64,000 bases of DNA. Source: Kushneria sinocarnis. Its GTDB lineage: Bacteria > Pseudomonadota > Gammaproteobacteria > Pseudomonadales > Halomonadaceae. The stretch is from positions 372,001-436,000 of the forward strand of contig NZ_RBIN01000003.1 in the NCBI RefSeq assembly GCF_003633775.1, in the 5' to 3' direction. Position numbers and translations under genes: made by a program. How positions within the stretch are numbered: the stretch's first letter is position 1; every line of letters begins with the position of its first letter. This document shows positions 3,056-52,106 of this stretch, in pieces. A model generated the notes under the pieces. The model did not search any database and was not told the origin of the DNA. It saw only the letters and a program-made list of their open reading frames with translations.

Positions 3056-4431
3056 AGCCCGTTGTAGGCCGCGATCCGGTAGGCTTCCGCCATGGTCGGG
3101 TAGTTGAAGGTGGTATTGACGAAATAGTTCAGCGTATTGGCATCACCCGGCTGATTCATGATCGCCTGACCGATATGCACGATCTCGGAGGCCTGATCGC
3201 CGAAGCAGTGGATGCCGAATATTTCCAGCGTATCCGGGTGGAACAGGATCTTCAGCATGCCCACGGTATCGCCGGTAATCTGCGCGCGGGCGGTATCCTT
3301 GAAGAAGGCCTGGCCCACTTCATAGGGAATCCGGGCCTCGGTCAGCTCCCGCTCGTTGCGGCCCAGCGAGCTGATCTCGGGGATGGTGTAGATACCGGTG
3401 GGGATGTCATTGACATAGCGGAAGGCGCCGTTCAGTGCATCGCCGGAGGCCGAGCGCCCCTGGTCATAGGCGGCACTGGCCAGGCTCGGCCAGCCGATCA
3501 CGTCGCCGGCGGCATGGACATGCGCCAGCGTTGTCCGGTAATGCTCATCGACCTGCAGCTGACCGCGCGAATTGGCTTCCAGTCCCAGCTTGTCCAGGCC
3601 CAGCTGATCGGTGTTGCCGGTCCGCCCGTTGGCCCACATGAAGGTATCGGCGCGCAGTCGCTTGCCCGATCGGAGATGAAGGGTGACCCCGGTATCGTCA
3701 CCTTCGACCCGCTCGTACTCCTCGTTGTGGCGGATCTGCACCCCGTTGTTGCGCAGATGGTAGGAGAGCGCATCGCTGATCTCGTCATCCAGGAACGACA
3801 GCAGCCGATCCCGGGTATCGATCAGGTCCACCTTGACGCCCAGCCCCGAGAAGATCGAGGCGTACTCCGAACCGATCACCCCGGCCCCATAGATGATCAT
3901 CCGGCGCGGCGTGTGCGACAGCCCCAGAATGGTATCGGAACAGAAGATGCGGGGGTGTCGAAAGTTGATGTCCTTCGGCCGGTAGGGCCGCGACCCGGTA
4001 GCGATCACGAAATTGTCGGCACGGACTTCCACATGGCCTTCGTGCGCATCACGCACCACCAGGCTGTGCGGATCGCTGAAGCTGGCCATGCCGTGGTGAA
4101 CATCGATGCGATTGCGGCTGTAGAAGGCCGTGCGCATTTCCACCTGCTGCTCGATCACCCGGCGTGACCGCTCCAGCATGCGGGGAAACGAGACCCCGCG
4201 CGGTTCGGCGATCTCGCGAAACAGCGGATTGTCACGAAACTGCATCAGCTGTTTGACGGCATGCCGCAGGGCCTTGGAAGGAATGGTACCGCGATGGGTA
4301 CAGTTGCCGCCGACCGTGGTCTGCGCGTCCACGATGGCCACGCGCCTGTCATGCTTGGCGGCATTGATGGCGGCACTTTCACCGGCCGGTCCCGAACCGA
4401 TGACAACAACATCATAATGATAAACGGTCAT
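3040..4431 (-). CDS. sthA: Soluble pyridine nucleotide transhydrogenase
   Basis: A 463-residue cytoplasmic FAD flavoprotein that transfers hydride between NADPH and NAD+, generally burning excess NADPH. It has an N-terminal Rossmann FAD motif [13 protein letters not shown] (9-21). At [13 protein letters not shown] the usual redox disulphide of the family is broken: C44 is kept but the second position is T49, the hallmark that separates SthA from lipoamide dehydrogenase and glutathione reductase. An NAD(P)-binding [13 protein letters not shown] and a C-terminal dimerisation domain with [14 protein letters not shown] follow. It lies 29 bp after nqrM and is probably cotranscribed with it. Length is normal. 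Confidence 0.95.
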
Positions 4432-48350: not shown

Positions 48351-49610
48351 ATGACTGCCTATAATGCCTTCTACGCGCAATCCGGCGGTGTCTCGGCCGT
48401 CATCAATGCCAGCGCCTGTGGCGTGATCGAAACCTGCCGCCGGCATGACGATCGGATCGGGCGTGTCTACGCCGGCCGCAACGGTATCATCGGCGCCCTC
48501 ACCGAGGACCTGATCGACACCACCCCGGAGAGCGATGAAGCCATCGCCGCGCTGCGCCATACCCCGGGCGGCGCCTTCGGCTCCTGTCGCTACAAGCTCA
48601 AGGATATCGAAAGCCACCGGCGTCAGTACGAGCGTCTGATCGAGGTCTTCAAGGCCCACGATATCCGCTACTTCTTCTACAACGGCGGCGGCGACAGTGC
48701 CGATACCTGTCTCAAGGTTTCCCAGCTTGCCGAGCACATGAACTATCCGATCCAGGCCATTCATGTTGCCAAGACCGTCGACAATGACCTGCCGGTGACC
48801 GACAACTCCCCCGGTTTCGGATCGGTTGCCAAGTACATTGCCACTTCCGTGCGTGAAACCGCCCTGGATGTGGCCTCGATGTGCTCGACCTCCACGAAGG
48901 TCTTCATCCTGGAAGCCATGGGGCGCCACGCCGGCTGGATTGCCGCGGCCGGGGCGCTGGCCAGCGAGGACAACGACGGACCGCCCCACATCATCCTGCT
49001 GCCGGAAGTCCCCTTCGACCGCAAGCGCCTGATGGCACGCATCGACGAGACCGTGAAGCGCTGCGGCTACTGCGTGATCGTGGTCTCCGAGGGAACCCGC
49101 TACGAGGATGGCACCTTCCTGTCCGATGCCGGCAACACCGATGCCTTCGGTCACCGCCAGCTCGGTGGCGTGGCGCCCACGCTCGCCGGCATGGTCAAGC
49201 AGGATCTGGGGCTGAAGTATCACTGGGCCGTCGCCGACTATCTGCAGCGCGCAGCGCGTCACATTGCCTCCCGGGTCGATGTCGAACAGGCCTATGCCGT
49301 CGGCCAGCGCGCCGTGGAGTGCGCGCTCGAGGGGCAGAATGCGGTGATGCCGGCCATCCGCCGCGACAGTGAATCCCCCTACCGCTGGTCACTGTTCGAT
49401 GCGCCGCTGAGCGAGATCGCCAATCAGGAGAAGTTCATGCCGCGGGAGTTCATCCGCGAGGACGGCTTCGGCATCAATGAGCTCGGGCGGCGCTATCTGC
49501 GACCGCTGATCCAGGGCGAGGATTTTCCACCATTCGAAAACGGGCTGCCGAAGATGGCGCAGCTGGCACTGCGTCCGGTCGAACGCCGGCTGCCCGAATT
49601 CGAACTGTAG
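48351..49610 (+). CDS. pfp: Pyrophosphate-dependent 6-phosphofructokinase
   Basis: 419 residues. The PPi-dependent type is read from two positions: the GGGDS motif (112-116) has Asp where ATP enzymes have Gly, and KTVDND (141-146) has Lys where ATP enzymes have Gly. The substrate region NSPGFGSVAKYIA and MGRHAGWIAAAGAL are intact. The reaction is near equilibrium, so it can serve both glycolysis and gluconeogenesis and spares ATP. Two genes downstream lies inorganic pyrophosphatase, which would compete for PPi. AGGAAT precedes the ATG. Confidence 0.93.
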   Translation: MTAYNAFYAQSGGVSAVINASACGVIETCRRHDDRIGRVYAGRNGIIGALTEDLIDTTPESDEAIAALRHTPGGAFGSCRYKLKDIESHRRQYERLIEVFKAHDIRYFFYNGGGDSADTCLKVSQLAEHMNYPIQAIHVAKTVDNDLPVTDNSPGFGSVAKYIATSVRETALDVASMCSTSTKVFILEAMGRHAGWIAAAGALASEDNDGPPHIILLPEVPFDRKRLMARIDETVKRCGYCVIVVSEGTRYEDGTFLSDAGNTDAFGHRQLGGVAPTLAGMVKQDLGLKYHWAVADYLQRAARHIASRVDVEQAYAVGQRAVECALEGQNAVMPAIRRDSESPYRWSLFDAPLSEIANQEKFMPREFIREDGFGINELGRRYLRPLIQGEDFPPFENGLPKMAQLALRPVERRLPEFEL

Positions 49611-49649: not shown

Positions 49650-51425
49650 TCAGTGCAGCCACCAGGAAAGTACCAGCAACAGCAGCAGCACACCCGCCAC
49701 CATCTGCCAGAGCTTGGCGGGCTCGCGCCAGACCGGACGCTTCTCCCTCTCCTCTTGCTCGGTGGCAACGGCTGCCACGTCGGCTTTCCGATCCCCGCCC
49801 CGGGGTTCCTGACGCAGCGCATGCACGAATTCCGACAGGCGCCGATAGCGCAGTGCGCGCTGCGGCGAAAGCGCCCGCTCCAGCGCACTGTCCAGCGCCT
49901 CGGGAATCGCCGGATCATAGCTGCGAATGCTGCGATACCGCAGCTGCGAGAGCTCGGCAGGCTGACGCAGCGATGTCATCGGATAGTCATAGGGCAGCGC
50001 ACCTGACAGCAGCCAGTAGATGGTCGAGGCGAGCGAAAACTGATCGCTGCGCCGGCTGACCTGCCCCTCCAGGGCATACTCCGGCGCGCTGTGCACGCTG
50101 AGCCCCACCTCGCGTGCCAGCCGCACGGCCTCTCCGTGCTCTTCGTCCTCACGCCGTGAGCAGGCGCCGAAATCGATCAGCACCACCTGCTCATGCGGGT
50201 CGAGCATGACATTTTCCGGGCGAATGGCCTGGTGCAGCAGCTCGCGGCGATGCAGCGAGTGCACGGCCTTGGCGAGCTGACGCGCAATATCCAGCCGCTG
50301 CTCGAGCCCCGCCGCGGCATGGGTCTTCAGCCACTGATCCAGAGTCACACCCCCGACATCGCGCATCAGATAGTAGAGATAGCGTCGCGGCCGGGGCGGG
50401 TCGACCACCTTGACCACGAACGGTGATCTGACCCGACTGGCAACCCAGTGCTGCAGCATGAAATGCTCCAGGTAGGCGTTGCGCTGTGACAGCTCCGGGC
50501 TGGGAGCCTTCATGATCAGACGTGTGCCGTGCTCGCCATCACGCACCCGATAGACCCGCGCCTTGGCGTTGCGCGACAGCACCGCCTCCACCTCGTAACC
50601 ATCGAGCCGATCGCCCGGCTCCATTTCCGAGGGGATCGGCAGGGTGTCATAACGCTGAAAGCTCGGCTCGCCCTTCGCCTCCGGCAGCCGATCCACCCGC
50701 ACCAGCTGAAAGCAGAAGGCCTCGGCGCCGTAGCCCCGATCCAGCGCCCGCTCGCTGGCAAAATGGGCCAGCCGCTCACAGGCAGCATCGAGATCGCTGG
50801 CATTGCGACGGATCAGCTGGACATAGTCCGAGGGCAGCAGCGTGCCCCGCACGGCCTGGGTGGTGAAGAGAAAGATATCGCCCTGCTTGAGCGGCATGCT
50901 CAGATAGTCGATATCGATGCTGCCATCCATGCCCAGCGCCCGGGAGGGGTAGCGATAGCCGCCGAGATCGGTGACATGATCACGCGAGAGCTGCTCGAAC
51001 TCCGCGCCGCGCAGCCGGAACACCAGCGTGTCGCCCATGTGGAAGAGATGGGCCTCTTCCCCGCGGAACACCACCGCCGACAACGAGCTGACATAGCTGC
51101 CCCCGGTCACGAAACGGCTCTGGCTGAAGCACCAACCGTTGAGGGCCCGCAACACCCGGGTAGCGGATGTCTTGACGTCCCAGTGCTCGGGAGTGGAAAA
51201 GTAATCCGCCAGAAAGCCGCGCACCGAGAGATCGCCCGCCTGGCGGGCAATGGCATTGCGCCAGGTGGAATCGGCGATCACCGCGCAACCGCCCTTGGCC
51301 GCCAGCTGCACCGATTGTTCCGGAACCTGAACCGCCATCGAGGAGCGATGATGGCGCTGATCGGGTGCAACAAAGGCGTGGCCGAAGCTCAGCGATAGTT
51401 CATTCTCCACGTAACCCCCTGTCAT
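49650..51425 (-). CDS. Membrane-anchored PP2C-like / Ser-Thr kinase-like fusion with degenerate active sites
   Basis: 591 residues. Residues 1-245 are PP2C-like: an ADST at 51-54 replaces the ADG of active enzymes, HMGDT (129-133) is kept, and the second metal Asp of the TDG motif is Q190 (FTTQAVRG). Residues 275-545 are kinase-like: the Gly-loop is degenerate (VLSRNAKARVY), K306 and DFG (418-420) and SAPEY are kept, but the catalytic HRD-type Asp is A400 in LLHQAIRPENVML. A single C-terminal helix (573-590) anchors it, with the domains in the cytoplasm. It is homologous to 'bifunctional kinase/phosphatase' proteins of Pseudomonas type but probably inactive in both parts. A GTG at 51410, preceded by AGGGGG, may be the true start. 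Confidence 0.85.
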   Translation of the reverse strand: MTGGYVENELSLSFGHAFVAPDQRHHRSSMAVQVPEQSVQLAAKGGCAVIADSTWRNAIARQAGDLSVRGFLADYFSTPEHWDVKTSATRVLRALNGWCFSQSRFVTGGSYVSSLSAVVFRGEEAHLFHMGDTLVFRLRGAEFEQLSRDHVTDLGGYRYPSRALGMDGSIDIDYLSMPLKQGDIFLFTTQAVRGTLLPSDYVQLIRRNASDLDAACERLAHFASERALDRGYGAEAFCFQLVRVDRLPEAKGEPSFQRYDTLPIPSEMEPGDRLDGYEVEAVLSRNAKARVYRVRDGEHGTRLIMKAPSPELSQRNAYLEHFMLQHWVASRVRSPFVVKVVDPPRPRRYLYYLMRDVGGVTLDQWLKTHAAAGLEQRLDIARQLAKAVHSLHRRELLHQAIRPENVMLDPHEQVVLIDFGACSRREDEEHGEAVRLAREVGLSVHSAPEYALEGQVSRRSDQFSLASTIYWLLSGALPYDYPMTSLRQPAELSQLRYRSIRSYDPAIPEALDSALERALSPQRALRYRRLSEFVHALRQEPRGGDRKADVAAVATEQEEREKRPVWREPAKLWQMVAGVLLLLLVLSWWLH

Positions 51426-51566: not shown

Positions 51567-52106
51567 ATGAGTTTCGACAGGCTCCCTGCCGGCAAGGATA
51601 TCCCCGATGATCTGTACATCGCGATCGAGATCCCTGCCAACCATACGCCGATCAAGTACGAGATCGACAAGGAACTGGATGCCGTGATGGTCGATCGCTT
51701 CATGGCGACTCCCATGTTCTATCCGGCCAACTACGGTTTCATCTCCAACACCCTGGCAGATGACGGCGATCCACTGGATGCCCTGGTCGTGACCCCCTAT
51801 CCGGTACAGGCCGGCTCGGTGATCCGGGCGCGTCCGGTGGGTATCCTCAACATGAGCGATGAAGCCGGTGAGGATGCCAAGCTGATCTGTGTGCCGCATC
51901 GCAAGCTGACCAGCCTCTATGACAGTGTCGAGGAGATCACCGATCTGCCCGAGCTGCTGCGCCAGCAGATCGCCCACTTCTTCGAGAACTACAAGGATCT
52001 CGAGAAGGGCAAGTGGGTCAAGGTCGACTCCTGGGACAACGCCGACGCTGCCCGCCGCGCCGTCGAGAAGGCCGTTCGCGCCTGGGAGCAGGAACAGCAG
52101 CAGTAA
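51567..52106 (+). CDS. ppa: Inorganic pyrophosphatase
   Basis: A 179-residue family I soluble enzyme that hydrolyses PPi to two phosphates and pulls biosynthetic reactions forward. The active-site acidic cluster is seen in [11 protein letters not shown], with the N-terminal [17 protein letters not shown] and [14 protein letters not shown] lies upstream of the ATG. It is divergent from the pseudokinase-like gene, and both share the 141-bp promoter region. Length is normal. Confidence 0.97.

Follow-up and report, generated by a model that had tools for sequence, protein, structure and literature searches.

A PP2C-kinase fusion of Halomonadaceae with catalytic residues replaced in both halves, a probable double pseudoenzyme

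A 64,000-nucleotide stretch of the Kushneria sinocarnis genome (assembly GCF_003633775.1, contig NZ_RBIN01000003.1, positions 372,001 to 436,000; the window) carries on its minus strand a coding sequence of 591 amino acids (P0001; 49650..51425), called as an open reading frame (ORF) and assigned by family matches, for a PP2C-like phosphatase fused to a kinase-like domain. The reading that we prefer, with a probability of roughly 0.7, is that a nitrate-linked PP2C-kinase lost both active sites in the ancestor of the halomonads and became a fixed double pseudoenzyme, a core, non-enzymatic and membrane-tethered binding protein. Members of the Halomonadaceae are used in biotechnology as producers of ectoine and polyesters.

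Gene, neighbours and protein architecture

The fusion gene lies between a convergent gene for the pyrophosphate (PPi)-dependent phosphofructokinase (PPi-PFK; diphosphate--fructose-6-phosphate 1-phosphotransferase; 48351..49610, plus strand; NCBIfam PRK14072, 4.9e-191) and the divergent inorganic pyrophosphatase gene ppa (51567..52106, plus strand). The first-pass annotation had described the frame, its strand and coordinates and both neighbours in the same way. Farther out stand a gene that we take from its sequence to be mpl, and dsbD, which directly follows ppa, giving the order mpl-PFK-kinase-ppa-dsbD. Scanning for regulatory sites returned one promoter-like site where 0.5 was expected and one terminator-like site where 1.1 were expected. 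In several genomes, a DUF2333 protein (PF10095) is encoded in the pyrophosphatase/dsbD part of the locus (L104:4052-5164, L176:11801-12826, L205:7501-8532).

The pseudophosphatase domain, of PP2C fold, spans residues 12-244 (50694..51392, minus strand), and the pseudokinase domain spans residues 267-542 (49800..50627, minus strand). Both folds are present in an AlphaFold2 (AF2) model built from 43 aligned sequences, that of the window and 42 from Halomonadaceae (mean predicted local distance difference test score, pLDDT, 78.7; predicted template modelling score, pTM, 0.53). Compared with solved structures on the DALI scale, the first domain of the model matches the PP2C phosphatase tPphA (2j82; Z 24.6, root-mean-square deviation 2.4, 209 residues aligned) and the second matches the kinase PknB (5u94; Z 25.4, deviation 2.9, 252 residues aligned). 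In Pfam the protein matches Pkinase at 2e-21 and PP2C_2 at an E value of 0.01, below the cut-off of that family, whereas four relatives with intact motifs score 9.2e-12 to 5.6e-15 for PP2C_2. The NCBIfam matches, all far below their cut-offs, show general kinase and PP2C similarity. On its own, the sequence of the N-terminal half matches solved structures weakly (best E 0.0029), so that it is the model and the relatives that support the assignment of the PP2C domain. A C-terminal hydrophobic helix in the AF2 model, residues 570-590 (49656..49718, minus strand), is a probable tail anchor. The two folds and the hydrophobic tail bear out the earlier proposal of a PP2C-kinase layout with a membrane anchor.

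Catalytic residues lost and kept

Residues were compared across 201 distinct full-length sequences, consisting of 120 halomonad orthologues including the window protein (the dead set) and 81 relatives with intact motifs (the intact set). Of the 119 dead sequences besides that of the window, 63 come from named Halomonadaceae records and 56 from genomes that represent 18 of the family's 24 genus codes; the intact set comprises 4 halomonad paralogues and 77 sequences from 45 other family codes. Merging of identical or contained sequences reduced 234 entries to 200, to which the window was added, after exclusion of ORFs shorter than 450 amino acids, matches covering fewer than 400 positions and best matches below 150 bits. 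Outside the family the loci read are a subset of the matches, and dead forms may occur there as well. Of 235 relatives in the genome collection, 80 named loci were retained, and NCBI ranks assign every one of them to the Halomonadaceae; loci of identical sequence place Kushneria species in the genus group of the window. The PP2C-then-kinase chain aligns over its full length with the 81 intact relatives, and a hydrophobic 17-mer occurs within the last 60 residues of 118/119 dead sequences (window excluded) and of 79/81 intact ones.

The motif residues of PP2C phosphatases and of protein kinases have known catalytic roles. D190, E325 and D400 are each absent from all 120 dead sequences and present in all 81 intact ones. 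All positions given below are on the minus strand and were assigned from the alignment. In the PP2C half, R27-S28 (51342..51347) replaces the metal-binding acids of the NED motif; each of the two residues is found in 119/120 dead sequences, and intact relatives have E, Q or D at position 27 and D at position 28 in 80/81, the remaining row being a gap. That R27 substitutes an arginine for a metal is an attractive guess. The ADG motif has become ADST (51264..51275), in which D52 is kept in 119/120 dead sequences and G53 in none, compared with 81/81 for G53 in the intact set. Q190 (50856..50858) replaces the Asp of TDG; the dead set has Q in 103, R in 13 and P in 4 sequences at this position, and the intact set has D throughout (81/81). 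In the window protein the Arg of GD[ST]R is Leu at position 134. D132 is retained in 120/120 dead sequences, and position 235 is D in 62, E in 38 and another residue in 20.

In the kinase half, the beta3 lysine K306 (50508..50510) is kept in 117/120 dead and 81/81 intact sequences. Its partner, the alphaC Glu, is replaced by Q325 (50451..50453), with Q in 120/120 dead and E in 81/81 intact sequences. The catalytic-loop Asp of HQD is replaced by A400 (50226..50228); here the dead set has Q in 48 sequences, R in 33, A in 11, H in 10, N in 8, G in 7, S in 2 and L in 1 and never D, and the intact set has D in 81/81. D418 of DFG (50172..50174) is kept in 116/120 dead sequences, and so are N405 in 112/120 and E449 of the APE motif (A447-P448-E449 in the window protein) in 119/120.

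The first-pass annotation had read K306, Q190, A400, the DFG motif at D418 and APE from the window sequence as they stand, and had concluded that catalytic residues are replaced in both halves. The family-wide counts agree, and they add the NED acids, the alphaC Glu and the GD[ST]R Arg, which had been overlooked. It had also suggested a check of whether A400 and Q190 are fixed in an orthologous clade; D never occurs at 190 or 400, A400 itself is found in 11 and Q190 in 103 of the 120 orthologues. DFG is retained in the window protein but not in the family, where its glycine persists in 34/120 sequences only. A degenerate glycine loop had also been counted as evidence of lost activity. The glycine-poor loop at residues 283-292 is no such sign, because all 81 relatives with intact motifs share it with the dead set.

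A comparison of 23 dead with 77 intact representatives shows five sites at which each set is conserved but for a different residue, including D28->S, D190->Q and E325->Q; 25 sites are fixed in the dead clade only, and D400, G420 and D235 have been freed there. The newly fixed residues include, besides these three replacements, M30, R528 and R529. The site of the catalytic base thus became free, and other formerly catalytic positions were frozen as new residues. Migration of the catalytic Asp to another place was considered and rejected, the only acids near the loop being at positions 395 and 404, where they are about equally common in intact relatives. A sequencing error or a peculiarity of one genome was likewise rejected, since the losses are present in 120/120 distinct orthologues. 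Taken together, the residues suggest that neither half is active.

Dead orthologues also have a short insertion at window residues 229-232, just before the former DN motif, which intact relatives do not have; its RG is invariant (RGY in 118/120). Erosion of the pseudokinase has gone further in a sub-clade of three loci, L053 (G005), L040 (G117) and L044 (G274), where up to about 20 residues are inserted around position 475 and N405 is replaced; L053 has Ala in place of the beta3 lysine K306.

Descent, spread and selection

In a maximum-likelihood tree of 100 rows obtained by a quick search, all 23 dead representatives group together in one clade, whose Shimodaira-Hasegawa-like approximate likelihood ratio test (SH-aLRT) value is 100 and whose stem measures 0.99 changes per column. 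This clade sits within a weakly supported set (83) together with intact relatives of the same order. The intact nitrate-type paralogues that some halomonads carry are placed elsewhere, behind a branch with an SH-aLRT of 97. Descent of the dead clade from these paralogues was rejected, as grouping the dead rows with 17 rows of that type is disfavoured in the approximately unbiased (AU) test (p-AU 0.026), a value that serves as a guide only because the group was chosen after the tree had been seen. Grouping the dead rows with two f17 rows of related gene order (G290 and G331) lies 0.27 log units below the free tree (p-AU 0.49), so that such a placement is allowed by the tree, not proved.

Family matches were found in 272/275 Halomonadaceae genomes and in all 254 genomes of good quality (254/254); the three genomes without a match are incomplete assemblies (71-88%). 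Outside the family but within the same order, 92/187 genomes have a match at E <1e-50 by our own tally. The ratio of nonsynonymous to synonymous substitution rates (dN/dS, NG86) has a median of 0.040 and a range of 0.012-0.178 in 40 close dead pairs, and a median of 0.066 in 4 intact pairs, after removal of 4/44 dead pairs and 1/5 intact pairs for saturated dS. Between the window and G125 the values are 0.060 for the fusion gene, 0.056 for the neighbouring PFK gene and 0.009 for the pyrophosphatase gene. The dead clade is under strong purifying selection.

A decaying relic was also considered, for which three isolated cases speak: locus L043 (G031) is frame-shifted near residue 427, with two pieces in different frames that reflect either a broken gene or an assembly error and that spoil its own alignment columns after this residue, and the orthologues of G128 and G165 have one internal stop each. 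The matches in every good family genome, the low dN/dS and the newly fixed residues all speak against a relic, which is rejected in bulk by dN/dS; we consider it extremely improbable. The earlier view, that the sequence of both halves is that of a dead enzyme and that selection has preserved the protein, is strongly supported. Of the observations that the first-pass annotation had named as refuting it, a displaced catalytic Asp and relaxed selection were not found, and truncation is sporadic. The scaffold or sensor role that had been proposed on this ground would fit such a protein.

The two halves are not equally conserved. Mean pairwise identity among the dead representatives is 0.65 in the PP2C half and 0.51 in the kinase half, compared with 0.49 and 0.47, respectively, among the intact representatives, and dN is lower in the PP2C half in 33/40 dead pairs. 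The higher conservation of the PP2C half in the dead clade suggests that the protein works mainly through the surface of its pseudophosphatase half.

This difference also bears on whether the protein is a repurposed enzyme, whose kinase fold keeps ATP and catalyzes another transfer, like SelO (AMPylation) and SidJ (glutamylation); both are described as pseudokinases with new activities in an excerpt of a review (PMC12599244). That K306, D418 and N405 are mostly kept is in agreement with this idea. However, the Glu partner of the beta3 lysine is Gln in every dead sequence, eight different residues freely replace one another at the site of the base, many sequences have lost the DFG glycine, and K306 is lost in one lineage. 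Moreover, the kinase half is the less constrained one, whereas the strongest conservation would be expected at a site that reacts. A new catalytic activity thus appears improbable.

The computed evidence for the double pseudoenzyme is the presence of both folds, the absence of catalytic residues from all orthologues that were read, the single clade, the near-universal retention, the purifying selection and the lack of nitrate genes in the flanks examined. In our proposal, the ancestor would have been a PP2C-kinase fusion with both halves intact, a membrane tail and, usually, an adjoining nitrate or nitrite gene. Both active sites would have been lost once, on the Halomonadaceae stem, where the gene became core. 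The C-terminal helix probably tethers the protein to the membrane, facing the cytosol, and the better conserved pseudophosphatase half may dock a partner. The pseudokinase half would be a structural module that may hold a nucleotide, given that K306, N405 and D418 are mostly kept, and that would not transfer phosphate. The lack of activity, the membrane topology, the binding role and the PP2C half as main interface are the parts that we infer. With no catalysis in either half, the options that remain are binding or a new reaction.

Several points weigh against this proposal. D52, D132 and an acid at 235 (100/120) persist in the PP2C site, which may bind metal weakly. A residue pattern predicts inactivity and does not prove it, and some predicted pseudokinases turned out to be active. 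The sister position of the dead clade is an open fork in the tree. The dead rows represent one family, so that 120 sequences are not 120 independent events and each loss may be a single event; these 120 distinct orthologues were read out of 272 matches. Six incomplete or contaminated family genomes have weaker matches only (E 1e-74 to 1e-126). Finally, L053 has Ala at position 306, and 8/120 sequences have another residue in place of N405, indicating that a nucleotide is probably not essential everywhere.

Nitrate linkage, candidate partners and known relatives

A nitrate or nitrite gene lies within 700 bp of the fusion in 68/81 intact loci (L066-L088, L171-L237), namely, NarK in 47, mostly on the same strand, a formate/nitrite transporter in 17, NirB in 3 and an FAD-reductase in 1. 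We take the last of these, a neighbour that was not scanned, to be NasB-like, and the gene positioned next to NirB is presumably NirD. The frequency of this arrangement suggests that the intact kinase-phosphatase acts in nitrate assimilation. No nitrate or nitrite gene was found beside the dead form at any of 119 loci within the flanks examined, which extend about 1.5 kb or less for dead loci L002-L065 and for intact loci L066-L088 and L209-L237. In the window's genome NirB is still present, on a different contig, and G120, 1 of 10 genomes of the genus, keeps the dead protein and has no full-length NirB match.

Intact relatives occupy parts of the window-type locus in other families. PPi-PFK adjoins them convergently in G295, G335 and G421, of which G295 and G421 are also near NirB, and lies 2.8-6.6 kb away in G442, G397, G339 and G331. 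In G422 the intact relative adjoins mpl; in G290 it is divergent from the pyrophosphatase gene, and DUF2333 and dsbD come next; and in G331 the order is mpl-PFK-...-kinase-DUF2333-dsbD. Most simply, a nitrate-linked fusion with intact motifs would have occupied this locus; its nitrate neighbours would then have departed, and the fusion would have remained in place and become catalytically dead. The intact relatives in such positions suggest what the ancestor was, making the halomonad protein an evolutionary experiment that asks which functions survive the loss of catalysis.

PPi-PFK lies within 400 bp and is convergent at 86/119 dead loci, and ppa lies within 700 bp and is divergent at 114/119. 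Three dead loci scored as having PFK only probably have a ppa hidden by an over-long frame, because distances were measured between stop-to-stop ORFs. PFK and pyrophosphatase are candidate partners by position, and the protein could regulate gluconeogenic PPi metabolism by binding or sensing their products. An excerpt of one study reports that the PPi-PFK of Chromohalobacter (csal1534) acts as the fructose bisphosphatase in vivo (PMC6692947), and the pyrophosphatase would pull this bisphosphatase reaction. However, the neighbours are convergent and divergent and do not form one operon, the block has retained mpl and dsbD as well, so that slow change in gene order may suffice, PFK is not in the examined flank of Chromohalobacter and Salinicola loci, and G005 and G274 keep the dead protein without any PFK match. 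A regulator of PPi metabolism is thus conceivable but unlikely. The PFK/pyrophosphatase setting, which the first-pass annotation had also mentioned, lends weak support: the neighbours are real, but the partly conserved gene order is also found in some intact relatives of other families.

Pseudoenzymes often accompany an active copy and regulate it, a common role among those of eukaryotes, and the halomonad protein might in the same way act in trans as the switch of a functional Ser/Thr kinase or phosphatase. A second Pkinase match exists in many halomonads. In the window's genome, however, the fusion is the only Pkinase match, so that regulation of a sister kinase is unlikely there, and a single Pkinase match is found in 7/10 genomes of the genus. 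PP2C_2 has no match in the window's genome, PF00481 not having been searched; one SpoIIE-type phosphatase was found, and a phosphatase partner is possible. Overall, we regard such a pseudo-partner as very improbable. The double pseudoenzyme presents a case in which both halves of a two-way switch look dead, some genomes have no other kinase-family match, and the gene is nearly universal in the family. The non-catalytic work of the kinase fold and the PP2C fold would be isolated in one natural protein.

The closest known system is the PP2C-kinase fusion found in Pseudomonas and other Gammaproteobacteria; in its excerpt, the paper on it claims to be the first report of such a fusion, in Pseudomonas and Deinococcus (Krupa and Srinivasan 2005, PMC1262709; P. 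aeruginosa gi|9947763). The PP2C-then-kinase chain and the C-terminal membrane helix are common to these fusions and the halomonad clade, at about 540-610 amino acids and with about 30-39% identity over most of the length. Those fusions keep D190, E325 and D400 in all 81 examined and mostly lie near nitrate or nitrite genes, whereas the halomonad clade does neither. It has the two folds and the C-terminal helix, but has lost the acids of NED, the Asp of TDG and the Gly of ADG, the alphaC Glu and the catalytic-loop Asp, as well as the nitrate/nitrite neighbour, which is usual but not universal in the fusion family. The halomonad clade is a descendant of this family that departs from it in its catalytic and usual gene-neighbour features. 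We take gi|9947763 to be PA1782. In an excerpt of PMC8560001, PA1782 is named only as a possible Ser/Thr kinase.

Pseudokinases generally lack at least one of the beta3 Lys, the HRD Asp and the DFG Asp, and the HRD Asp is absent here in 120/120. Similarly, the PP2C fold with lost metal-coordinating acids agrees with the description of a PP2C pseudophosphatase. The excerpted review by O'Boyle et al. (2025, PMC12599244) describes the seven bacterial families ActPs1-3, GLW, DLHK, CP1 and DYD, in a full scheme of 42 families, as conserved in bacterial clades, with a Ser/Thr-kinase fold without canonical catalytic residues; they are grouped by whether the divergence affects all three motifs or those for ATP and metal binding, and PP2C is not mentioned in the text. 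The halomonad clade falls into neither group: its protein keeps the beta3 Lys and DFG Asp and loses the catalytic-loop Asp and alphaC Glu, and its fusion partner is a dead PP2C. GLW members also have a membrane segment C-terminal to the kinase, but they are defined in the excerpt by GLW in place of HRD and a bulky residue in place of the beta3 Lys, where the halomonad clade has HQ[A/Q/R/...] and K306. The retention of K306 and D418 in 117 and 116 of the 120 sequences likewise separates it from the excerpt's grouping of ActPs1-3, DLHK and DYD. Some members of CP1 have a single degraded motif according to the same excerpt, so that one lost motif would be admitted there, and this family may prove closer in its residue pattern. 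The type VII secretion pseudokinase EssB/YukC is, in the review excerpt, also a bacterial, membrane-anchored structural hub, but has all three kinase motifs degraded and is part of a secretion system (PMC12599244). A PP2C fold with a diverged active site is described for PHLPP2 in an excerpt of PMC12002173.

A search of the literature, covering titles and the beginnings of abstracts, returned no halomonad PP2C-kinase pseudoenzyme. TAB1 likewise has a PP2C fold with a diverged active site; it and PHLPP2 are eukaryotic and are not known to be fused to a dead kinase, and EssB/YukC is not known to have a PP2C domain. On balance, and with modest confidence, we favour the view that one bacterial family turned a two-activity switch in a nitrate setting into a core non-enzymatic membrane hub, its sites lost on one stem branch and new residues frozen, and that this is, to our knowledge and within the literature searched, the first bacterial fused and jointly conserved pseudokinase and pseudophosphatase.

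Other arrangements of these domains were seen among the relatives. At L191 (G406), two PP2C-kinase fusions of different clades stand in tandem, at 4304 and 7279, one of which has the unusual loop MHGDLKPDN and sits on a long branch (1.52). In a halomonad, L054, an intact PP2C-kinase fusion, has a PP2C-only match (G160:C1:413484-414200) at a distance of about 2 kb.

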